Assembly: GCF_003350345.1 (NCBI RefSeq)
Contig: NZ_QNVJ01000009.1
Location: 1-64,000, forward strand
DNA length: 64,000 bases
Source of the DNA: Alkalilacustris brevis
GTDB lineage: Bacteria; Pseudomonadota; Alphaproteobacteria; Rhodobacterales; Rhodobacteraceae
Direction of reading: 5' to 3'
Below, piece by piece: positions 11,377 through 57,440 of this stretch. A program made the translations under genes and the position numbers. The first letter of the stretch is position 1; every line of letters begins with the position of its first letter. Below the pieces are notes generated by a model. That model did not search any database. It saw only the letters and a program-made list of their open reading frames with translations, and had not been told where the DNA came from.

Positions 11377-11412
11377 ATGCCTCCGGCGGGGATATTTTGA
11401 CCAAGAAGAAGG
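11377..11412 (+). repeat. Dispersed GGATATTT element, copy a (AAGAAGAAGG subtype)
   Basis: Reads ATGCCTCCGGCGGGGATA then TTTTGACCAAGAAGAAGG. Same architecture as the other copies: a CCTCCGGC arm, GGATATTT core and an AAGAAGAAGG end. It follows scpB in scpB direction and faces the end of dcd. Confidence 0.8.
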
Positions 11413-23502: not shown

Positions 23503-23526
23503 CCCTTCTTCTTGGCCCAAATATCC
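23503..23526 (-). repeat. Dispersed GGATATTT element, copy b (core only)
   Basis: On the minus strand: GGATATTTGGGCCAAGAAGA then AGGG. The left arm CCTTCGGC is missing here; only core and AAGAAGAAGG end are kept. It lies downstream of mnhG in mnhG direction. Confidence 0.75.
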
Positions 23527-30555: not shown

Positions 30556-30626
30556 GGCGCGGCGGGCCTGCGGCCCTTGCCTCCGCGCCAATGCCTTCGG
30601 CGAGGATATTTTTGCCAAGAAGAAGG
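30556..30626 (+). repeat. Dispersed GGATATTT element, copy c (long form)
   Basis: Core at 30591-30626 (ATGCCTTCGGCGAGGATA, TTTTTGCCAAGAAGAAGG) preceded by a GC-rich hairpin module with GGGCC/GGCCC arms, shared with copies d and e. Located between convergent oxyR and hisH, in oxyR direction. Confidence 0.85.
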
Positions 30627-35919: not shown

Positions 35920-35992
35920 CCCTTCTTCTTGGCGAAAGTATCCCCGCCGGAGGCACCGGCGCGGAATAAAGGGCCGGCAGGCCCGCCGCGCC
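35920..35992 (-). repeat. Dispersed GGATATTT element, copy d (long form)
   Basis: Core at 35920-35955, CCCTTCTTCTTGGCGAAA then GTATCCCCGCCGGAGGCA, followed by the GGGCC/GGCCC hairpin module as in copies c and e. Core has one substitution (GGATACTT on the minus strand). It is antisense to both flanking genes. Confidence 0.8.
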
Positions 35993-45063: not shown

Positions 45064-45401
45064 GCAGAGAGCCGCGCTGCCCCGGCGCAGCCGCAACTCG
45101 AAGGCGCGGCACCTGTCTTCTTCTTGGCAAAAATATCCCCGCCGGAGGCACCGGCGCGGGGCAAGGGCCGCAGGCCCGCCGCGCCGTCCGGCCACTTCCG
45201 GCTGCGGCCTGCGCACAGGCTCTGGACCGTGCTGCACACCCGTCCTATACAGCGCCCCATGACACAGCATCGCATCCGGCCCCTGCGAATTACCGGCCCG
45301 GCGCTCTGAGCCTCAGAGCCGCCGGGATAAATGGCGCAGCCCCTGCGCGCCGCTTTCGCAACCAGCCCAGACCGACCGGACCCGCCAAAGGACATTCCCT
45401 G
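45064..45401. other. Leader region of ileS
   Basis: Contains repeat copy e (45116-45185). I see no T-box, no leader peptide and no terminator. The last 30 bp hold the ribosome binding site AAAGGA for ileS. Confidence 0.5.
45116..45185 (-). repeat. Dispersed GGATATTT element, copy e (long form)
   Basis: Core 45116-45150 (GTCTTCTTCTTGGCAAAA, ATATCCCCGCCGGAGGCA) followed by the GGGCC/GGCCC hairpin module shared with c and d. Antisense to the flanking genes. Confidence 0.85.
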
Positions 45402-48365
45402 ATGTGTGCCGACCAGCCCGACTATAAAGCCACGCTTTCCCTGCCCGAAACCGAATTCCCCATGCGCGCGGGCCTGCCCGGCCGCGAACCCGCCTGGCTG
45501 GAGAAATGGGCGCGCATCGGTATCTACGATCGGCTGCGCGACAAGGCCGCGCGCGGAGCGCGGCCGCTTGGCCCCTTCACGCTGCATGACGGCCCGCCCT
45601 ATGCCAACGGGCACCTGCATATCGGCCACGCGCTCAACAAGGTGCTGAAAGACATGGTGGTGCGCTCGCGCCAGATGATGGGGCATGACGCGCGCTATGT
45701 GCCGGGCTGGGACTGCCACGGCCTGCCCATCGAATGGAAGATCGAGGAACAATACCGCGCCAAGGGGCTCGACAAGGACAAGGTTGACCTCATTGATTTC
45801 CGGCAGGAATGCCGCCGCTTCGCCGAAGGCTGGATCGATGTGCAGCGCGACGAGTTCAAGCGCCTGGGCGTCACCGGCAACTGGGAAAACCCCTATCTGA
45901 CCATGGATTTCCACGCCGAGGCGGTGATCGCCGGGGAGTTCATGAAATTCCTCATGAACGGCACGCTTTACCAGGGCTCGAAGCCCGTGATGTGGTCGCC
46001 GGTGGAAAAGACCGCGCTGGCCGAAGCCGAGGTGGAATACCACGACCGCCAGACCGAAGCGGTGTGGGTGAAGTTTCCGGTGGTTGGTTTGACGCTTTCA
46101 GGAAGTGAGTCTGAGGCGGTTGATATGCGCCGCAAAGAAATGGAGGAGCTTCCGAGCGCTTTTGTCCTCATCTGGACCACCACGCCTTGGACGATCCCGC
46201 AGAACCGCGCCATCGCCTTCAACCCCGATATTGCCTACGCGCTCTACCGCGTCACCGACGCGCCCGAGGAAAACTGGGCAAAGACGGGCGAGACTTTCCT
46301 CATGGCCGAGAAACTGGCCGAGGATGTTTTCGGTGCCGCACGGGTCGAAGCGTTCGAGAAATTGCGCACGGTTAGCGCCGACGAACTGGCCGCGCTGACC
46401 TGCGCGCACCCGCTGCGCGGCCTCGACGGCGCGCAGCGAGAATGGGATTACGATGTTCCGCTCCTGCCCGGTGAGCATGTGACCGACGATGCCGGCACCG
46501 GCTTTGTCCACACCGCGCCCAGCCACGGCGATGATGACTATGCGTTGGGGCGCGCGCATGGGCTGGAGATGACCCATAACATCCTCGACGATTCCTCCTT
46601 CCGCGCCGATCTGCCGTTCTTCGGGGGCGAGCGGGTGGTGCGCGAAAACGGCAAGCCCGGCGGCGCCAACAAGGCGGTGATCGAGAAGCTGAAGGAGGCC
46701 GGCGCGCTGATCGCCATGAAGCGCCTCACCATCTCGGACGCGCATAGCTGGCGCTCCAAGGCGCCGGTGATCCGGCTCAATCGCCCGCAATGGTTCGCGG
46801 CCATCGACCGCGAGCTCGACGACGGGCTGGACGGCCCGACCGGCCAGCGCACCATCCGCACCCGCGCGCTGACCTCGATCGACAAGCTGGTGCAATGGAC
46901 GCCGCAAACCGGCCGCAACCGGCTTTACAGCATGATCGAGGCGCGTCCCGACTGGGTGCTTTCGCGCCAGCGCGCCTGGGGTGTGCCGCTCACCTGTTTT
47001 GTAAAGAAAGAGGCGCAACCCACTGATTCCGATTTCCTTCTCAAGGACGAGCGAGTCAACGAACGAATCGCCGAGGCGTTCGAGGCGGGCGGCGCCGATG
47101 TCTGGTACAAGCCCGATTTCAAGGCCGAGGTGCTCGATGGGCTGCACGACCCTGACGCCTATGAGCAGGTTTTTGATATCCTTGATGTGTGGTTCGATTC
47201 CGGCTCCACCCACGCCTTCGTGCTGCGCGACCGCGCAGACGGCACCGAGGACGGCATTGCCGATCTCTACCTCGAGGGCACCGACCAGCATCGCGGCTGG
47301 TTCCATTCTTCGATGTTGCAGGCCTGCGCGACCAAGGGGCGCGCGCCCTATCGCGGCGTGCTGACCCATGGCTTCACGCTCGACGAAAAGGGCATGAAGA
47401 TGTCCAAATCGCTGGGCAACACGGTCGCGCCCGAGGATGTGACCAAACAGTATGGCGCCGATATCCTGCGGCTCTGGGTGGCGCAGTCCGATTACACGGC
47501 CGATCTGCGCATCGGCCCCGAGATCCTGAAAGGCGTGGCCGACAGCTATCGCCGGCTGCGCAACACGCTGCGCTTCATGCTGGGCAATCTGGCCGGGTTT
47601 GATGAGGCCGAGCGTGTCGCGCCCGCCGATATGCCCGAGCTGGAGCGCTGGGTGCTGCACCGGCTGGCCGAACTGGACGCGGAAGTGCGCAAGGGCTATG
47701 CGGCCTATGATTTCCAGGGCGTGTTCCAGAAGCTCTTTCACTTCTGCACAGGCGATCTTTCGGCCTTCTATTTCGATATCCGCAAGGACGCGCTTTACTG
47801 CGATGCGCCGGACAGCCAGCGCCGCCGCGCCGCGCGCACCGTGCTTGACCTGCTGTTCCATCGGCTGACCACCTGGCTCGCGCCGGTGCTGGTCTTCACC
47901 ATGGAAGATGTGTGGGAGGCGCGCTTCCCCGACCCGGACGACTCGGTGCACCTGCACGACATGCCCGAAACGCCGGACGAATGGCGCGCCCCCGAGCTTG
48001 CGTCGAAATGGGCTGATATCCGGAAGGCGCGCCGCGTGGTGACCGCCGCGCTCGAAGTGCAGCGCCGCGACAAGGTGATCGGCGCCAGCCTGGAGGCCGC
48101 GCCGCGCGTGCATTTGGCCGATGCGGCGGTGCTGGCCGCGCTGGAAACGGTCGATTTCGCCGATCTCTGCATCACGTCGGGCGTGACGCTCAGCGGTGAC
48201 CCCGCTCCGAAGGACGCCTTCGAACTGGCTGAAATCACGGGCGTCGCCGTGGTGTTCGACCGCGCAAGGGGCGAGAAATGCCAACGCTGCTGGAAGATCC
48301 TGCCCGATGTAGGCCAACACAGCCACCCGGCGACCTGCGCACGCTGCAGCAGCGCCCTGGGCTGA
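45402..48365 (+). CDS. ileS: Isoleucyl-tRNA synthetase
   Basis: 987-residue class I synthetase. HIGH motif as HLHIGH in PPYANGHLHIGHALNK, editing domain (CP1) with TAPSHGDDDY, KMSKS in GMKMSKSLGN, and the C-terminal zinc finger CQRCWKILPDV...CARCSS. Length matches the bacterial type. ATG 45402 is chosen for family match (MCADQPDYKATLSLPET) with AAAGGA upstream, although the frame is open to 44754. Confidence 0.97.
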   Translation: MCADQPDYKATLSLPETEFPMRAGLPGREPAWLEKWARIGIYDRLRDKAARGARPLGPFTLHDGPPYANGHLHIGHALNKVLKDMVVRSRQMMGHDARYVPGWDCHGLPIEWKIEEQYRAKGLDKDKVDLIDFRQECRRFAEGWIDVQRDEFKRLGVTGNWENPYLTMDFHAEAVIAGEFMKFLMNGTLYQGSKPVMWSPVEKTALAEAEVEYHDRQTEAVWVKFPVVGLTLSGSESEAVDMRRKEMEELPSAFVLIWTTTPWTIPQNRAIAFNPDIAYALYRVTDAPEENWAKTGETFLMAEKLAEDVFGAARVEAFEKLRTVSADELAALTCAHPLRGLDGAQREWDYDVPLLPGEHVTDDAGTGFVHTAPSHGDDDYALGRAHGLEMTHNILDDSSFRADLPFFGGERVVRENGKPGGANKAVIEKLKEAGALIAMKRLTISDAHSWRSKAPVIRLNRPQWFAAIDRELDDGLDGPTGQRTIRTRALTSIDKLVQWTPQTGRNRLYSMIEARPDWVLSRQRAWGVPLTCFVKKEAQPTDSDFLLKDERVNERIAEAFEAGGADVWYKPDFKAEVLDGLHDPDAYEQVFDILDVWFDSGSTHAFVLRDRADGTEDGIADLYLEGTDQHRGWFHSSMLQACATKGRAPYRGVLTHGFTLDEKGMKMSKSLGNTVAPEDVTKQYGADILRLWVAQSDYTADLRIGPEILKGVADSYRRLRNTLRFMLGNLAGFDEAERVAPADMPELERWVLHRLAELDAEVRKGYAAYDFQGVFQKLFHFCTGDLSAFYFDIRKDALYCDAPDSQRRRAARTVLDLLFHRLTTWLAPVLVFTMEDVWEARFPDPDDSVHLHDMPETPDEWRAPELASKWADIRKARRVVTAALEVQRRDKVIGASLEAAPRVHLADAAVLAALETVDFADLCITSGVTLSGDPAPKDAFELAEITGVAVVFDRARGEKCQRCWKILPDVGQHSHPATCARCSSALG

Positions 48366-48423
48366 GAGCCACCCGGCCCGCGCGCCAGAGGTTCGTGCGC
48401 GGGGTTCCCGTGGCCGGCGGCGC

Positions 48424-48460
48424 ATGCCTTCGGCGAGGATATTTTCGCCAAAGAGAAGGG
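48424..48460 (+). repeat. Dispersed GGATATTT element, copy f
   Basis: ATGCCTTCGGCGAGGATA then TTTTCGCCAAAGAGAAGGG. Downstream of ileS in ileS direction. Right half of composite copy 1. Confidence 0.85.
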
Positions 48461-48510
48461 GCTGGGGCGGCAACAGGCGGGCGGCGGGATCGCCTGCGCG
48501 CGCCTGTTCA

Positions 48511-48550
48511 TTCTTCTTGGAAATAAATATCCATACACGGCTTCAGCCGG
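48511..48550 (-). repeat. Dispersed GGATATTT element, copy g (CCGGCTGAAGCCG subtype)
   Basis: On the minus strand CCGGCTGAAGCCG (hairpin CCGGC/GCCGG-like), TGTAT, GGATATTTATTTCCAAGAAG, AA. Same subtype as copy i. Eight bp downstream of the oxidase gene stop. Confidence 0.85.
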
Positions 48551-48558
48551 TGTGCCGG

Positions 48559-49728
48559 TCAGATGCCGGGCGCGGCGGTTGCCGGGGGCGCGGGCCAGAG
48601 CCGTGAGGCGGCTTGCCCGGGGCGGGTGATGCCCATCTGTTTCATGTTGGTGATCAGGTCCTCGCGCAGCACATGCACCAGATGCGGGGCGCCCCTCGGC
48701 CCCATCGCCCCCAGCGCGTAATGCCAGCCGCGCCCGAGCATGACGTAATCGGCCCCCAGCGCGAAGGCGCGGAGCATGTCGAGGCCCGTCTCGAGCCCGC
48801 CGTCGAAGATCAGCGGGTAATCGGGCCCGACCGCGGCGCGGATGCCCGCCAGCACGTCGATCGACCCCGGCGCGCCGTCGAACTGGCGCCCTGCATGGTT
48901 GGAGACCCATACGGCATCGATCCCTTCTCGGCGGGCGCGGGTGGCGACATCGGCCTCCATGACCCCCTTGATGACGAGCGGGCCGTCCCATTCCTCGCGC
49001 ACGCGGGCCAGATAATCCCAGTCGGGCGCGTCGCGCAGCAAGTAGCCCACATGCGCGGTCGAGGAGGTCGGTCCCTCGGCCTTCATGTAGCTTTCCATCA
49101 TCTTAAGGCGGGGGCGGCCCACGCGCAGCGTGCCCAGCGCCCAGGCCGGGCAGCGCGCGATCTGCAGCAGCATCCCCGGGGTCAGCCGTGGCGGCAGGGT
49201 GAGTTTAGCGCGCAACTGTCGCTCGCGCCGGCTGGGGCCGGGCAGATCGACGGTGACAACCAGCGTGTGAAACCCGGCCGCACGCGCGCGGCGAAGGATG
49301 TCGCGGCGGATATCGCCACTCTTGGGGGTGTAGAGCTGGAACCAGCCCTGTGCGCCCACATGGGGCCCGACATCCTCGGGCGTGCGGGTGGCCACGTTGG
49401 AGAGGCAATAGACCATGCCCGCTTCGCTGGCGGCTTCTGCCAGGGCGATCTCGGCGCCGGGCCACATCAGCCCCGACATGCCCACCGGCGCCACGCCGAA
49501 GGGCAGGGCATGGTCCTGGCCCAGCAGCCTTGTGCCCAGATCCGGAGTGATCGGCCCGCGCAGGGCGGCGGGCAGGAACATGAGCCGCTCAAGCGCCTCG
49601 CGGTTGCGGTGCTTGGTGGTCTCATTGCCGGTGGCGCTATCGACATATTCCCACACGAAATACGGGATGCGCCGCTTGCAGGCGGCTTTCATGTCGCTCA
49701 GGGCGGGGAAGGTAAGGTCAAGATCCAT
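48559..49728 (-). CDS. lldD: FMN-dependent alpha-hydroxy-acid oxidase/dehydrogenase (LldD type)
   Basis: 389 residues of the lactate oxidase/glycolate oxidase family. FMN- and substrate-site motifs: YVDSATGNE near the start, GVAPVGMSGLMWPGAE, WFQLYTPKSGD, VTVDLPGPSRRER, and the catalytic base in VSNHAGRQFDG; the phosphate-binding end is FDGGLETGLDMLRAFALGADYVMLGR. Substrate is probably L-lactate or a related 2-hydroxy acid; the sequence does not decide. Divergent from argE. It is one end of the three-gene block enclosed by the composite repeats. Confidence 0.88.
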   Translation of the reverse strand: MDLDLTFPALSDMKAACKRRIPYFVWEYVDSATGNETTKHRNREALERLMFLPAALRGPITPDLGTRLLGQDHALPFGVAPVGMSGLMWPGAEIALAEAASEAGMVYCLSNVATRTPEDVGPHVGAQGWFQLYTPKSGDIRRDILRRARAAGFHTLVVTVDLPGPSRRERQLRAKLTLPPRLTPGMLLQIARCPAWALGTLRVGRPRLKMMESYMKAEGPTSSTAHVGYLLRDAPDWDYLARVREEWDGPLVIKGVMEADVATRARREGIDAVWVSNHAGRQFDGAPGSIDVLAGIRAAVGPDYPLIFDGGLETGLDMLRAFALGADYVMLGRGWHYALGAMGPRGAPHLVHVLREDLITNMKQMGITRPGQAASRLWPAPPATAAPGI

Positions 49729-50128
49729 GGCGCTGTTATAAGCGATGCAGCGGGTTGGGGAAGGGGGGGCGCGCCGCGGCGTCAGTCTTTTGCAAGACAG
49801 AGATGCGCGCCCGTTACCGAAGGGGCGGGTGGCGCGGGCTGATCGCCCGAGCTTCACGGGACATGGCGGGAGCAAGGCTCTGGCCCCTGGCCGGACACGC
49901 TGTGCAAGGCCGCGCGCCCATGGCTGGCGGGGGCCTGCGGCGCGGATATTTTCATCACAGTGAAGGTGTGGGGACGCCACGGCGCGGGCGGATTGCCCGG
50001 AGGCTGGCCGTCTTGCCGCCGGGGCGTGCGCGGGGGCGGTGGTGCGCTTCGCCGCGCGGGGGTGGCCTTGACCTTGCCGGAATGCGCGCCCACTGTGGCG
50101 GCGAATCCCGCTTGCCGGAGGCTTCGCG
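49729..50128. other. Divergent region lldD/argE
   Basis: 400 bp without a credible gene. It contains repeat copy h at 49935-49966 and otherwise GC-rich sequence in which I see no clear promoter. Confidence 0.55.
49935..49966 (+). repeat. Dispersed GGATATTT element, copy h (CAGTGAAGG subtype)
   Basis: CTGCGGCGCGGATATTTTCA then TCACAGTGAAGG. The end CACAGTGAAGG replaces CCAAGAAGAAGG, as in copies j and k. Not adjacent to a gene end in its direction. Confidence 0.8.
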
Positions 50129-51292
50129 ATGCCTGCGCCCCTGACTGCCCGTGAAATTCTCGAAAAGCTGGTGGCTTTTCCCACGGTCAGCCGCGACAGC
50201 AACCTGGCGCTGATCGACTGGGTGGAGGGGTATCTGGACGATCTTGGCGTGCAGGCCCGCCGCGTGCCCAATGCCCGGGGCGACAAGGCCAGTCTTTATG
50301 CGCATGTCGGGCCCGAGGCCGAAGGGGGCGTGGTGCTTTCGGGCCATACCGATGTGGTGCCGGTAGATGGGCAGGCGTGGACGACCGACCCCTGGCGGCT
50401 GAGCGAACGCGGCGGGCGGCTTTACGGGCGCGGCAGTTGCGACATGAAGGGCTTTGTCGCACTGGCGCTGGCGGCGGTGCCGCAGGCGCTGCAGGTGCGG
50501 CTGAATCGTCCGCTGCAACTGGCGCTCAGCCATGACGAGGAAATCGGCTGTGTCGCGGTGAAAGACCTGATCGCGGAAATGACCGCCAAGCTGCCGCGCG
50601 CCGATGCGGTGATCGTGGGCGAGCCGTCGATGATGCAGGTGGTGTCGGGGCACAAGGGGGGCACCGGCTATCAGGTGCATGTGCGCGGGGTTGAGGTGCA
50701 TTCGTCGATCCTGCACCGGGGAGTGAGCGCGGTGATGCAGGCCGCGCGGCTGATCGACTGGGCCAACCGGCAGAATGCCGCCGGGGCCGCGCGCGCGCCG
50801 GGGCCGCTGACTGCGCCCTTCGACCCGCCCTGGACCACGCTGCATGTGGGCACCATCGCCGGCGGCACCGCGGGCAACATCACCGCCGGCGCGTGCCGTT
50901 TCACCATCGAGTTCCGCGTCGTGCCCGGCGAGTCGGTCGAGGACTGGACCACCGCCTTCGAGGCCCGCGTGGCCGAGATCGAGGCCGAGATGCAGGCCAT
51001 CCATCCCGCCGCCCGCATCGTGCTTGAACGCTATTACGCGCTGCCGCCCCTGGAGCCCGAGCCGGCTGGGGCCGCCGAGGCGCTGGCGCGCAGGCTGACG
51101 GGTGACAACGCCGCCCGTGCGGTCAGCTACGGCACCGAGGGCGGGCAGTTTCAGCGGCACGGGTTTTCGACCGTAATCTGTGGCCCCGGTGATATTGCCC
51201 AGGCCCATCAGGCCGATGAATATATCAGCCTCGCCCAGTTCGATGCCGGGCAGGCATTCATGGGCCGCCTTGTGGAGTCGCTGCGCGCGTGA
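50129..51292 (+). CDS. argE: Acetylornithine deacetylase (M20 family)
   Basis: 387 residues. Metal ligands and catalytic residues of the M20 peptidase fold are visible: GHTDVVPVDG (His/Asp), GRGSCDMKG (bridging Asp), SHDEEIGC (Glu-Glu) and VGEPS, plus the lid domain dimerisation segment HVRGVEVHSSILHRG. Best match by memory is ArgE, which frees ornithine from N-acetylornithine; but it is linked to two oxidoreductases and not to arg genes, so another N-acyl amino acid is possible. Stop overlaps the next GTG. Confidence 0.82.
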   Translation: MPAPLTAREILEKLVAFPTVSRDSNLALIDWVEGYLDDLGVQARRVPNARGDKASLYAHVGPEAEGGVVLSGHTDVVPVDGQAWTTDPWRLSERGGRLYGRGSCDMKGFVALALAAVPQALQVRLNRPLQLALSHDEEIGCVAVKDLIAEMTAKLPRADAVIVGEPSMMQVVSGHKGGTGYQVHVRGVEVHSSILHRGVSAVMQAARLIDWANRQNAAGAARAPGPLTAPFDPPWTTLHVGTIAGGTAGNITAGACRFTIEFRVVPGESVEDWTTAFEARVAEIEAEMQAIHPAARIVLERYYALPPLEPEPAGAAEALARRLTGDNAARAVSYGTEGGQFQRHGFSTVICGPGDIAQAHQADEYISLAQFDAGQAFMGRLVESLRA

Positions 51293-52635
51293 GTGTGTTT
51301 CCCTTTTCCAGCAAGCTGCCGGTCAGCCACCCTGGCCCGCCACCCACGCAGGCCGACGTGGTGGTGATCGGTGCTGGCATCATCGGGGTGATGACCGCCT
51401 GGTATCTTGCCCGGCGCGGTTTCAGCGTGGTGATCTGCGAGAAAGGGCGCGTGGCGGCTGAGCAATCTTCGCGCAACTGGGGCTGGATTCGCCAGCAGGG
51501 CCGCGATCCGCATGAATTGCCGATCATGATGGAAGCCACCCGACTGTGGCCGGAGCTCGAGGCCGAATGCGGCGAAGACATCGGATACCGCCGCTGCGGG
51601 GTGCTTTACCTGGCCGGCAGCGAAAGCGAGATGGCGGCTTACGAGCACTGGCTCGAAACGGCACAGGCCCATGATCTGGAGACACGGCTTGTGGGCCGGG
51701 CAGAGATTGCCCGGATGATGCCGCAGGCCGCCGCGCTGTGGAAAGGGGGGCTTCACACTCCCGGCGACGCCTGCGCCGAACCCTGGCTTGCCGTGCCCGC
51801 GCTGGCGCGAGCTGCGGCGCGGCGCGGTGTGCCGATCGTCGAGAATTGCGCGGTGCGCGGGCTCGACCTGCGCGCCGGGCGTGTGGCGGCCGTGGTGACC
51901 GAGCAGGGGCGTATCGCCTGCGATCATGTGGTGCTGGCGGGGGGGGCGTGGTCGGCGCTGTTTTTGCGCAACCTCGGGGTCATGCTGCCGCAGCTTTCGG
52001 TGCTGGCCACGGCGGCCGCTACCGCGGCGCTGCCGCGCGTGTTCGATGGCGCCGCGGCCGAGGCCCGCTTTGCCCTGCGGCGCCGGCAGGATGGCGGCTA
52101 TACCATCGCGCCGGGCGGGGTGCATGATCTGCTTCTGGGGCCGGATGCCTTCCGCCATTTCACCCGCTACATGCCGCAGTTGCGCAGCGATCCCCTGGCG
52201 ACACGGCTCAAGCCCTTCGCGCCGCGCGGCTATCCCGACGGCTGGCGCACGCCGCGGGGCTGGAACCTGGATGCGCGCAGCCCATTCGAGGACATGCGCG
52301 TGCTCAACCCCGACCCGAACCGCCGCAGCCTCGCCCGGATTGTCGAGCGCTTCGCTGAGGTCTTCCCGACCCTGGGGCGCCCGGGGTTACGCATGGCCTG
52401 GGGCGGCATGATCGACACCATGCCCGACCTGCTGCCGGTGATCGACCGTGTGCATCAGGTGCCGGGGCTGGTTGTCGCCACCGGGATGAGCGGCCACGGT
52501 TTCGGCATCGGCCCGGCTATCGGCCGCGTGGTGGCCGAGATGGTGGCTGGCAACCCGGTGGGCCATGACCTGCACCGCTTTCGCCTGTCGCGCTTCTTCG
52601 ACGGCTCGCGCATCGTGCCCAGCCCCGCGATCTGA
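51289..52635 (+). CDS. FAD-dependent amino-acid oxidoreductase (DadA/glycine-oxidase type)
   Basis: 448 residues of the DAO superfamily: N-terminal dinucleotide motif VVVIGAGIIGVMTAWYLARRG, the QSSRNWGWIRQQGRD segment typical of FAD-dependent oxidoreductases near amine catabolism, and C-terminal GMSGHGFGIGPAIGRVVAEM. Start GTG 51289 overlaps the argE stop by 4 bp. It would oxidise an amine or D-amino acid; substrate unknown. Last gene of the block; the composite repeat begins at its last codons. Confidence 0.85.
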   Translation: MSVFPFSSKLPVSHPGPPPTQADVVVIGAGIIGVMTAWYLARRGFSVVICEKGRVAAEQSSRNWGWIRQQGRDPHELPIMMEATRLWPELEAECGEDIGYRRCGVLYLAGSESEMAAYEHWLETAQAHDLETRLVGRAEIARMMPQAAALWKGGLHTPGDACAEPWLAVPALARAAARRGVPIVENCAVRGLDLRAGRVAAVVTEQGRIACDHVVLAGGAWSALFLRNLGVMLPQLSVLATAAATAALPRVFDGAAAEARFALRRRQDGGYTIAPGGVHDLLLGPDAFRHFTRYMPQLRSDPLATRLKPFAPRGYPDGWRTPRGWNLDARSPFEDMRVLNPDPNRRSLARIVERFAEVFPTLGRPGLRMAWGGMIDTMPDLLPVIDRVHQVPGLVVATGMSGHGFGIGPAIGRVVAEMVAGNPVGHDLHRFRLSRFFDGSRIVPSPAI

Positions 52636-52643
52636 CCGGCGCG

Positions 52644-52685
52644 CCGGCTGAAGCCGCGCATGGATATTTATTTCCAAGAAGAAGG
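52644..52685 (+). repeat. Dispersed GGATATTT element, copy i (CCGGCTGAAGCCG subtype)
   Basis: CCGGCTGAAGCCG, CGCAT, GGATATTTATTTCCAAGAAG, AAGG. Eight bp after the oxidoreductase stop, in its direction. Confidence 0.85.
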
Positions 52686-52731
52686 AACAGCCGTGCGCAG
52701 ACGATCCCGCCGCCCGCCTGTTTCCGCCATG

Positions 52732-52768
52732 CCCTTCACTGTGACGAAAATATCCTCGCCGAAGGCAT
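52732..52768 (-). repeat. Dispersed GGATATTT element, copy j (CAGTGAAGG subtype)
   Basis: On the minus strand ATGCCTTCGGCGAGGATA, TTTTCGTCACAGTGAAGGG. Downstream of uvrD in uvrD direction. Confidence 0.85.
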
Positions 52769-52887
52769 CGACAGGCCTCTCCGCCGGCCTGTCGATATGA
52801 CGGATGCAGGCGCGTCGCTCAAAGGTTGCAGGGGCCTGGTCCGAATAAGGCGCACCGCTTCGCACTCCGGTTCGTCGGCCCGGCGGC

Positions 52888-55380
52888 TCAGAAAGGCACG
52901 TCGCCTGCGCGTTCTGCCGCCACCAGATACTGCGCGATCACATGCTTCTCGCCCGCCTTGTCGAAGGCGACCCGCAGCTTGTCGCCATCCACCCCGGTGA
53001 CATGCCCGTAGCCGAACTTCGCGTGAAAGACGCGCTCGCCCTCGCCGAAGGCCGACGGTTCCTCGGCACTGCGGGCGCGGGCCGGGCGGGCGGCCGAGGC
53101 CGGAGCGACCCGCGCGCCGCCATGGGCCTGCAGGCGTTTCCAGCCGGGCGAGTTGTAGACATCGGCGCGCGCCGCGCGGGTTTCCAGCGTGCCGCTATCG
53201 GGCTCTTCCGTGCCGTTGCGGCCGGCAAAACCGCTCACCCGGCCGCCAAGCCCGCCATAAAGCCCCGGCGGGGTTAGCACCTCGACATGCCTGACGGGCA
53301 ATTCATCGACAAAGCGCGACGGCAGCTGCGATTGCCATTGCCCGTAGACTCGCCGGTTCGCGGCAAACGAGATCGTGCAGATTTCCTCCGCCCGGGTGAT
53401 GCCGACATAGGCGAGGCGCCGCTCTTCCTCCAGCCCCTTGAGCCCGCTTTCATCCATCGAGCGCTGCGAGGGGAACAGCCCATCCTCCCAGCCGGGCAGG
53501 AAAACGACGGGAAATTCAAGCCCCTTGGCCCCGTGCAGCGTCATGATCGAGACTTTCTCACCCGCGGCGTCGGTCTCGTTATCCATGATCAGCGCGACAT
53601 GTTCCAGGAAACCCTGAAGATTGTCGAACTGTTCCAGTGCCTTGACCAGTTCCTTGAGGTTTTCCAGCCGGCCCGGCGCGTCGGGGGATTTGTCATTTTG
53701 CCAATGCGCGGTATAGCCGGATTCGTCGAGAATGCGCTCGGCCAGCTCGATATGGTTGCGCGGGGCTCCGCCGCCAGTGCCCGCAGCCTCGGGGGCGATG
53801 ATCTCGATCAGGTCGTCGTCGTCCGGTGTCCCGGGTGTGGTCAGACCTCCCGGACCCAGCCCGGCCATGGCGCGCACAGACTCGTGCCAGCGGGTGATCC
53901 CGTCGATCAGGGTGCGCAACTCGCGCGCGGCCTTGCCGCTCAGCCCGCCCGAATCGAGCAGCCGGCGCGCGCCTTCGGTCAGCGGCACATCGGCCGCGCG
54001 CGCGGCAGTCTGGATCTTTTGCTGCGCCTTGTCGCCCAAGCCCCGTTTGGGCGTGTTCACCACCCGCTCGAAGGCAAGGTCATCGCCCGGGCTGACGGCA
54101 AGGCGGAAATAAGCCATGGCGTCGCGGATCTCCATCCGCTCATAGAAGCGCGGCCCGCCGATCACGCGGTAGGGCAGGCCGATCGACAGGAAACGATCCT
54201 CGAAGGCGCGCATCTGGTGGCTGGCGCGCACCAGAATGGCCATCTGGTCCAGCCCGAAGGGCGTGTGCCCGCGCGTGCCCCGTTGCAGCGCCTCGATCTC
54301 TTCGCCGATCCAGCGGGCTTCTTCCTCGCCGTCCCAATGGCCGACCAGGCGCACGCGCTCGCCGCCTTCGGCCTCGGTCCAGAGCGTCTTGCCCAGCCGC
54401 CCCGCGTTGGCGGCGATCAGGCTGCCGGCGGCGGCCAGGATATGCGGGGTGGAGCGGTAATTCTGTTCCAGCCGCACCACCTGCGCGCCGGGAAAATCCT
54501 GCTCGAACCGCAGGATGTTGCCCACCTCGGCCCCGCGCCAGCCATAGATCGACTGGTCGTCATCGCCCACGCAGCAGATGTTGCGATGCGCCCCGGCCAG
54601 CAGCCGTAGCCACAGATATTGCGCGACATTGGTGTCCTGGTATTCGTCTACCAGGATATGGCGAAAGCGGCGCTGATACTGCTCCAGCACGTCGGGGTGG
54701 GTCTGGAAGATCGTCACCACATGCAGCAGCAGGTCGCCGAAATCCACCGCGTTGAGCGCCCTGAGCCGCGCCTGATAGGCCGCATACAGCGCCGGACCCC
54801 GCCCGTCGAAGGCGTCGGCCTCGCCGGCGGGCAGGGTCTCGGGCCGCCAGGCGCGGTTCTTCCAGTTGTCGATTATTCCGGCCAGGTGGCGGGCGGGCCA
54901 GCGCTTTTCGTCGATGCCGGCGGCGCTGATCTCCTGCTTGAGCAGTCGGATCTGGTCATCGGTGTCGAGAATGGTGAACCCTGGCTGCAGCCCGGCCAGC
55001 TCGGCATGGCGGCGCAGCAGCTTCACCCCGATGGCGTGGAACGTGCCCAGCCAAGGCAGCCCCTCCACCGATTGGCCCAGAAGCTGCGCGACGCGCTCCT
55101 TCATCTCGCGCGCGGCCTTGTTGGTGAAGGTCACGGCCAGAATCTCGTGCGGCCGCGCCCGCCCCATGTTGAGCAGATGCGCGATCCGGCAGGTCAGCGC
55201 CCTTGTCTTGCCGGTGCCCGCGCCCGCCAGCATCAGCACCGGGCCGTCCAGCGCCTCGACCGCGGCGCGCTGCGCGGGGTTCAGCCCGTCCAGATAGGGC
55301 GCCGGGCGCGCCGCCATCGCCTGTTGCGAAAGCGGCAGCGCGGCGGCGTCAAAGGCGTCGTGATCGTCGAATTCGTTCAT
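52888..55380 (-). CDS. uvrD: UvrD/PcrA-type DNA helicase
   Basis: 830-residue superfamily 1A 3-prime to 5-prime helicase. Motif I AGAGTGKTRAL, motif II VDEYQDTN, motif III DDDQSIYGWRGA, motif IV LEQNYRSTPHIL, motif V TLHGAKGLEFPVVFLPG, motif VI LAYVGITRAEE. The C-terminus (VFHAKFGYGHVTGVDGDKL) is the Tudor-like RNA-polymerase-binding domain of PcrA/UvrD. Acts in excision and mismatch repair with UvrA upstream in the window. A LexA box precedes the start, so SOS induction is expected. Confidence 0.95.
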   Translation of the reverse strand: MNEFDDHDAFDAAALPLSQQAMAARPAPYLDGLNPAQRAAVEALDGPVLMLAGAGTGKTRALTCRIAHLLNMGRARPHEILAVTFTNKAAREMKERVAQLLGQSVEGLPWLGTFHAIGVKLLRRHAELAGLQPGFTILDTDDQIRLLKQEISAAGIDEKRWPARHLAGIIDNWKNRAWRPETLPAGEADAFDGRGPALYAAYQARLRALNAVDFGDLLLHVVTIFQTHPDVLEQYQRRFRHILVDEYQDTNVAQYLWLRLLAGAHRNICCVGDDDQSIYGWRGAEVGNILRFEQDFPGAQVVRLEQNYRSTPHILAAAGSLIAANAGRLGKTLWTEAEGGERVRLVGHWDGEEEARWIGEEIEALQRGTRGHTPFGLDQMAILVRASHQMRAFEDRFLSIGLPYRVIGGPRFYERMEIRDAMAYFRLAVSPGDDLAFERVVNTPKRGLGDKAQQKIQTAARAADVPLTEGARRLLDSGGLSGKAARELRTLIDGITRWHESVRAMAGLGPGGLTTPGTPDDDDLIEIIAPEAAGTGGGAPRNHIELAERILDESGYTAHWQNDKSPDAPGRLENLKELVKALEQFDNLQGFLEHVALIMDNETDAAGEKVSIMTLHGAKGLEFPVVFLPGWEDGLFPSQRSMDESGLKGLEEERRLAYVGITRAEEICTISFAANRRVYGQWQSQLPSRFVDELPVRHVEVLTPPGLYGGLGGRVSGFAGRNGTEEPDSGTLETRAARADVYNSPGWKRLQAHGGARVAPASAARPARARSAEEPSAFGEGERVFHAKFGYGHVTGVDGDKLRVAFDKAGEKHVIAQYLVAAERAGDVPF

Positions 55381-55420
55381 GCGTGCACCCTAGCCCGGAC
55401 AGGGGCAGGAGAAAAGGGTT

Positions 55421-55435
55421 GTTCGCAGAATGTTC
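55421..55435 (+). promoter_or_regulatory. LexA (SOS) box of uvrD
   Basis: GTTCGCAGAATGTTC is GTTC-N7-GTTC, 40 bp upstream of the uvrD start codon (gene on the minus strand). Confidence 0.75.
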
Positions 55436-55557
55436 CTGCGCGCGCAAGCGGTCATGCGCCGGCCGCATCGCGGGCAGGTTCAGGGCGGTAACAGGCGCGT
55501 TTCGAAAAATGAGCGCGACCCCGACACCTTGCGGGGCGGGGGGCGATTGGCCGCGCG

Positions 55558-56097
55558 TCAGCGCGGCCCGATCATCATCACCATCTGCCGGCCTTCTAGC
55601 TTGGGCATGTTCTCGACCTTGCCGATCTCGGCCACGTCATCGGCTACACGGTTGAGCAGCTCGAGCCCCAGCTTCTGGTGCGCCATCTCGCGGCCGCGAA
55701 AACGCAGCGTGACCTTGACCTTGTCGCCGCCTTCCAGAAAGCGGATCACATTGCGCATCTTGACGTCATAGTCATGGACATCGGTCCCGGGGCGGAACTT
55801 GACTTCCTTGACCTCGATGGTCTTCTGCTTCTTGCGGGCTTCGGCCTCACGCTTCTGCTGTTCGTACTTGAACTTGCCGAAGTCCATGATCTTGCAGACC
55901 GGCGGCGTGGCGTTTGGCGAGATCTCGACCAGGTCGAGCCCGATTTCAACAGCCATTGCGAGCGCGTCTTCCGGAGTGCGCACGCCAAGGTTTTCCCCTT
56001 CGGCGCCAATCAGGCGGATCTCGGGGGCACGGATTCGATCGTTCACGCGGGGGCCAGTGTCACGGGTTGGCGGCGCGTTATGAGGTCTGCGGGCTAT
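55558..56097 (-). CDS. infC: Translation initiation factor IF-3, probable AUA start
   Basis: 179 residues. N-domain [21 protein letters not shown], the linker and [25 protein letters not shown]-domain [18 protein letters not shown] and [13 protein letters not shown] are standard IF-3. Alignment from memory puts the start at the residue before [19 protein letters not shown]; that codon is ATA (56097). AGAAGGA lies 9 nt upstream. No ATG or TTG fits, and the next GTG would delete 17 conserved residues. IF-3 is known to repress its own mRNA by rejecting non-canonical start codons (AUU in E. coli), so AUA suits the same control. Confidence 0.93.
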
Positions 56098-57411: not shown

Positions 57412-57440
57412 CCCTTCACTGTGAGGGAAATATCCTCGGG
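57412..57440 (-). repeat. Dispersed GGATATTT element, copy k (CAGTGAAGG subtype)
   Basis: On the minus strand CCCGAGGATATTTCCCTC then ACAGTGAAGGG. The CCTTCGGC arm is missing. Downstream of the ArsR-family gene in its direction. Confidence 0.75.

Follow-up and report, generated by a model that had tools for sequence, protein, structure and literature searches.

The window analysed here is a stretch of 64,000 nucleotides of the Alkalilacustris brevis genome (contig NZ_QNVJ01000009.1, positions 1 to 64,000). In this window, three genes lie between ileS and uvrD, with a copy of a composite repeat at either border:

45402-48365, plus strand: ileS, flanking copy 1
48424-48570, minus strand: copy 1 of the long composite, between the convergent genes ileS and lldD; spans the lldD stop codon
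48559-49728, minus strand: lldD-like FMN-dependent dehydrogenase, a neighbour of uvrD in relatives
50129-51292, plus strand: argE-type acetylornithine deacetylase
51289-52635, plus strand: FAD-dependent oxidoreductase, forming a conserved pair with argE
52624-52768, plus strand: copy 2 of the long composite, between the convergent FAD gene and uvrD; spans the FAD gene stop codon
52888-55380, minus strand: uvrD/pcrA helicase, flanking copy 2

The reading of these genes agreed with the original prediction that the composites flank exactly the lldD-like, argE and FAD oxidoreductase genes between ileS and uvrD. The infC gene (55558-56064) adjoins uvrD here; neither infC nor ileS adjoins uvrD in the relatives read. 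No recombinase or transposase was found among lldD, argE, the FAD gene and uvrD, which matched only their own families. An Rfam search of the whole window returned two tRNAs only; positions 48300-52900 gave no match at E 0.5, and no Rfam family corresponds to the repeat.

The two composites had been described as inverted copies of each other, and global alignment bore this out: 129 of the 145 aligned positions were identical (89%), with a single 2-nt gap and a longest identical stretch of 24 nt. A repeat search resolved the pair into one set of arms at 48466-48570 and 52624-52728 (105 nt, 90% complementary) and a second set at 48424-48465 and 52727-52768 (42 nt, 88%). The likeness is not due to chance, since BLAST of one composite against the other inside the genome gave 88% identity with an E value of 8e-47. 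Both copies were also said to start 8 bp after the stop codons. This holds for the family core CCGGCTGAAGCC and not for the composites as delimited above, which span both stops (lldD TGA, 48561-48559; FAD gene TGA, 52633-52635). The sequence ATCTGACCGGC across the stop codon is common to the window pair only, among five full copies in the genome.

These five copies emerged from a search of the whole genome (3.48 Mb, 103 contigs), in which the composite as query produced 41 matches. The near-full-length ones (~130 bp) are the window pair and C38:17581, C12:42668 and C62:38576. The latter three adjoin unrelated genes (names by reading of translations): flgI-like and helicase-like genes at C38:17581, an ABC-transporter ATPase gene at C12:42668, and dihydroxy-acid-dehydratase-like and aminopeptidase-like genes at C62:38576. 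The end unit of the composites, GCCTNCGGCGN'GGATATTT / GCCTNCGGCGNGGATATTT, is far more abundant, with 137 exact copies against 0 for a reversed-pattern control; 156 copies of GCCTNCGGCGNGGATATTT were found when one mismatch was allowed. Placement statistics were collected on 1.23 of the 3.48 Mb, about one third of the genome. There, GGATATTT occurs 87 times, compared with a mean of 5.9 and a largest value of 34 for 30 permuted octamers. With its 137 exact copies and 78 of these 87 occurrences outside predicted genes, the repeat is a short, high-copy, extragenic unit. The window itself contains the following units:

11379-11397, plus strand: lone type A unit, C/G variant, in a convergent spacer
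30593-30611, plus strand: lone type A unit, T/A variant, in a convergent spacer
35936-35954, minus strand: type A unit carrying a single mismatch (GGATACTT)
45131-45149, minus strand: lone type A unit, C/G variant, between lpd and ileS
48426-48444, plus strand: copy 1, end unit of type A (GCCTTCGGCGAGGATATTT)
48525-48532, minus strand: GGATATTT of the left-type (other) end of copy 1, facing inward
49933-49951, plus strand: lone type A unit, G/C variant, between lldD and argE
52662-52669, plus strand: inward-facing GGATATTT at the left-type end of copy 2
52748-52766, minus strand: copy 2, end unit of type A; a hairpin with a 12-bp stem, downstream of uvrD, comes immediately before it
57428-57435, minus strand: GGATATTT belonging to a unit of type B (CCGGGGGGCTGTCTGCCCCCCGG-ACCCCCCGA hairpin, then GGATATTT)

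Units are built in the order GCCTNCGGCGN'GGATATTTTT, then CACAGTGAAGG or CCAAGAAGAAGG, and the upstream and downstream halves are freely combined. The residues N and N' formed complementary pairs (T-A, C-G or G-C) in 94 of 95 units, compared with a mean of 35 and a maximum of 53 in shuffles; the 94 units are related copies rather than independent events, and their three variants amount to at least two compensated changes. This complementarity supports a predicted small stem, CCTNC-GGC-GN'GG, of 4 bp with a U-G pair, next to the AT-rich GGATATTT core. Upstream of GGATATTT there is often a strong hairpin of different sequence, ending 9-12 nt before it. Type B is a second upstream type, in which the hairpin CCGGGGGGCTGTCTGCCCCCCGG-ACCCCCCGA stands ahead of GGATATTT; about 8 copies were seen in the 1.23 Mb, namely at 57428 (minus strand) and at C71:67151, C36:9262, C55:26304, C55:95970, C55:102269, C94:36928 and C94:47419. 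Another upstream type, CACAAGAAAAA[A]C[AG]GACT ahead of GGATATTTGGGCCAAGAAGAAG, is present at 23519 (minus strand) of the window and at C55:96019 (minus strand) elsewhere in the genome.

The inward-facing arrangement of the composites extends to other units. Among the 78 intergenic copies, units within 160 bp of each other formed 10 head-to-head pairs with GGATATTT inward, no outward pair and one direct pair, whereas random placement gave on average 4.2 pairs of any kind and at most 7 facing inward. About 59 of the 78 units are without an exact facing partner. Paired forms come in two sizes, a short one of ~85 bp, which folds into near-perfect hairpins, and a long one of ~130-145 bp. Against mononucleotide shuffles, the long composite scored z of about -3.6 for copy 1 and -0.7 to 0 for copy 2. 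Copy 2 thus folds no better than shuffles, and the idea that the long form as a whole has a conserved structure was dropped.

Intergenic copies were distributed unevenly with respect to gene orientation. The 78 copies in the 1.23 Mb comprised 43 in convergent, 29 in tandem and 5 in divergent spacers, these class counts being approximate because the genes were predicted by a small codon-usage caller. The convergent count compares with a null mean of 12.9 and maximum of 25, and the divergent count with a null mean of 21.9 and minimum of 11. Expressed as spacers occupied, the repeat was found in 35 of 104 convergent, 27 of 339 tandem and 5 of 155 divergent spacers. A typical unit is positioned 40-150 nt after stop codons. 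The original prediction offered a duplicated 3'-end module as one possibility; this came close, the repeat being a dispersed one that lies just after gene ends. Within tandem spacers, 15 units were in sense and 15 in antisense orientation, which argues against a one-way terminator in its simple form.

Across the 61 genomes compared, the end unit was present in 25 (its own and 24 relatives), all of one family, and the full composite in its own genome only. Counts of the end unit inside the genus were 137, 32, 15, 0 and 0. A looser core, G[AG][AG]TATTT plus CAAGATGAAG-like sequence, recurs across Rhodobacteraceae with differing upstream parts. The unit follows orthologous FAD genes only sporadically (10 of 68, versus 21 of 301 other 3' ends). 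In a comparison with one relative (G004), one of 25 comparable spacers was filled here and empty there, a number too small to reveal mobility. The loci of relatives also ruled out an element conserved after uvrD or ileS. Another motif, CCGGGAGGAGG, is repeated after uvrD at two loci of the same genus (L150 and L152, in G002 and G001), whose genomes have no GGATATTT end units.

The gene order of relatives bears on whether the three genes form a mobile or invertible cassette, as originally proposed. In many named Rhodobacteraceae loci argE stands directly ahead of the FAD gene, with no lldD inside the fetched flanks. The lldD and uvrD genes are head-to-head neighbours in at least 10 relatives (including G001, G004, G007, G013, G014 and G015), while here both are on one strand and argE-FAD separates them. 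In most relatives ileS and uvrD are not adjacent, and the block genes occur in other neighbourhoods without composites. The expectation that relatives would have, lack or invert the block as a whole in this interval was thus not borne out: argE-FAD and lldD travel separately, and lldD pairs with uvrD. The three genes are no unit, and genes and repeats vary independently. It had been held that a block ancestral and fixed in orientation in all relatives, with repeats varying independently of it, would speak against a cassette; the repeats do vary in this way, and the block is a derived neighbourhood, not an ancestral one in fixed orientation.

By parsimony, a local rearrangement probably broke the lldD-uvrD 5'-5' adjacency, at the 5' spacers and not at the composites. 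The present order would result from a single inversion of argE-FAD-uvrD, broken in the lldD-argE spacer (likely 49728-50129) and in the uvrD-infC spacer (likely 55380-55558). An inversion between both composites cannot yield this rearrangement, the only one seen. Two convergent junctions, between ileS and lldD and between the FAD gene and uvrD, suffice to explain the mirror symmetry of the locus. Because the repeat favours such junctions, bracketing of what lies between two of them is often to be expected, and chance alone would set two asymmetric copies in inverted orientation in half of all cases.

The literature that we searched, whose coverage was incomplete, contained no account of this repeat. 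REP, BIME and REPIN elements are short, palindromic, high-copy extragenic units with alternative complementary stem residues; their inverted doublets are predicted to form hairpins, and they are sited between convergent and unidirectional genes (PMC3733652, PMC3116915, PMC2817692). The present repeat resembles them in its N-N' complementary stem variants (94 of 95), its inverted doublets and its convergent or unidirectional, rarely divergent, placement. It differs in that the unit consensus, by inspection, has no GTAG/CGTC tag at one end, in its 4-bp stem with a U-G pair and AT-rich GGATATTT core, and in that the host genome is without a Y1/RAYT transposase: no match to PF01797 (Y1/RAYT-type transposase) was found in this genome, while control genomes matched. 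The repeat therefore works like the REP family and is not placed among the tagged, RAYT-linked REPs, since both the tag and the Y1 transposase are missing. CGTC-tagged alphaproteobacterial REPs, for which a dedicated transposase is said to be missing, are described with stems of 8-9 bp and the CGTC tag (PMC3733652). Our repeat resembles this class in that no Y1 transposase was found for it, but has neither the CGTC tag nor the 8-9 bp stem. It also resembles intrinsic terminators, with a predicted hairpin and then an AU-rich tract downstream of stop codons, but its U tract is imperfect, it shows no sense bias in tandem spacers and it is repetitive at the sequence level; in a loose terminator scan, one end unit of copy 2 matched, with the tract AUAUUUU. 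The RIME and Bru-RS elements of alphaproteobacteria are palindromic intergenic repeats of roughly 100 bp. The present repeat may be akin to them, being likewise palindromic, intergenic and alphaproteobacterial.

We conclude that the composites are most probably copies of a lineage-expanded, REP/BIME-like extragenic repeat (probability about 0.8), which needs no cassette. The unit is ~36 bp long, consisting of the stem-loop CCTNC-GGC-GN'GG, then ATATTTTT, then CACAGTGAAGG or CCAAGAAGAAGG, and occurs singly or as head-to-head inverted pairs with GGATATTT inward, both window composites representing the long form. Copies persist where gene 3' ends meet, chiefly convergent ones, and are kept out of genes and promoter spacers. 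The data establish the copy number, the placement, the inverted pairing, the complementarity within the unit and the independence from the three genes. Spread would have been by non-autonomous copying, for which no candidate mobilising enzyme was identified. In a convergent pair, transcripts from either gene could include the hairpins at both ends, and the repeat may reduce read-through or shield the 3' ends of mRNAs. These are REP-like 3'-end intergenic repeats with a putative function and a putative spreading mechanism. More tentatively, a REP-like family with the signature GCCTNCGGCGN'GGATATTT might expand and turn over in Rhodobacteraceae without RAYT and now serve as a bidirectional 3'-end element of convergent genes.

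Less likely still, the unit could act chiefly as a signal for transcription termination or 3'-end processing that multiplied for its usefulness rather than as a mobile repeat. Its position mostly 40-150 nt after stops, the avoidance of promoter spacers, the hairpin with its AU-rich tract, the strong hairpins often just upstream and the recurrence of the core motif across Rhodobacteraceae would all suit such a signal. However, the units show no orientation bias in tandem spacers, appear sporadically after orthologous genes, range from 0 to 137 copies inside one genus and vary little in sequence, beyond what a stem requires. It is considerably more doubtful that the paired forms are MITEs derived from an insertion sequence bearing the same ends: the ends are inverted and there are two size classes, but most units (~59 of 78) are without an exact facing partner, no target-site duplication was seen in the single short pair read by eye, and reading of the unit coordinates revealed no larger parent element. 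Finally, although inverted 145-bp copies with 89% identity and a 24-nt longest run make homologous inversion geometrically possible, it is highly improbable that the composites serve as recombination sites for a three-gene cassette that moves or inverts, given repeats at more than 100 further sites without these genes, genes that are not a unit in relatives and no recombinase among them.

Under the REP-like reading, the apparent cassette is accounted for as the ordinary placement of a dispersed repeat, and a searchable repeat signature is now defined for Rhodobacteraceae. With 0 to 137 copies in one genus and no usual REP transposase domain, this group is one in which both the spread of the repeat and its part in transcript ending may be tested.
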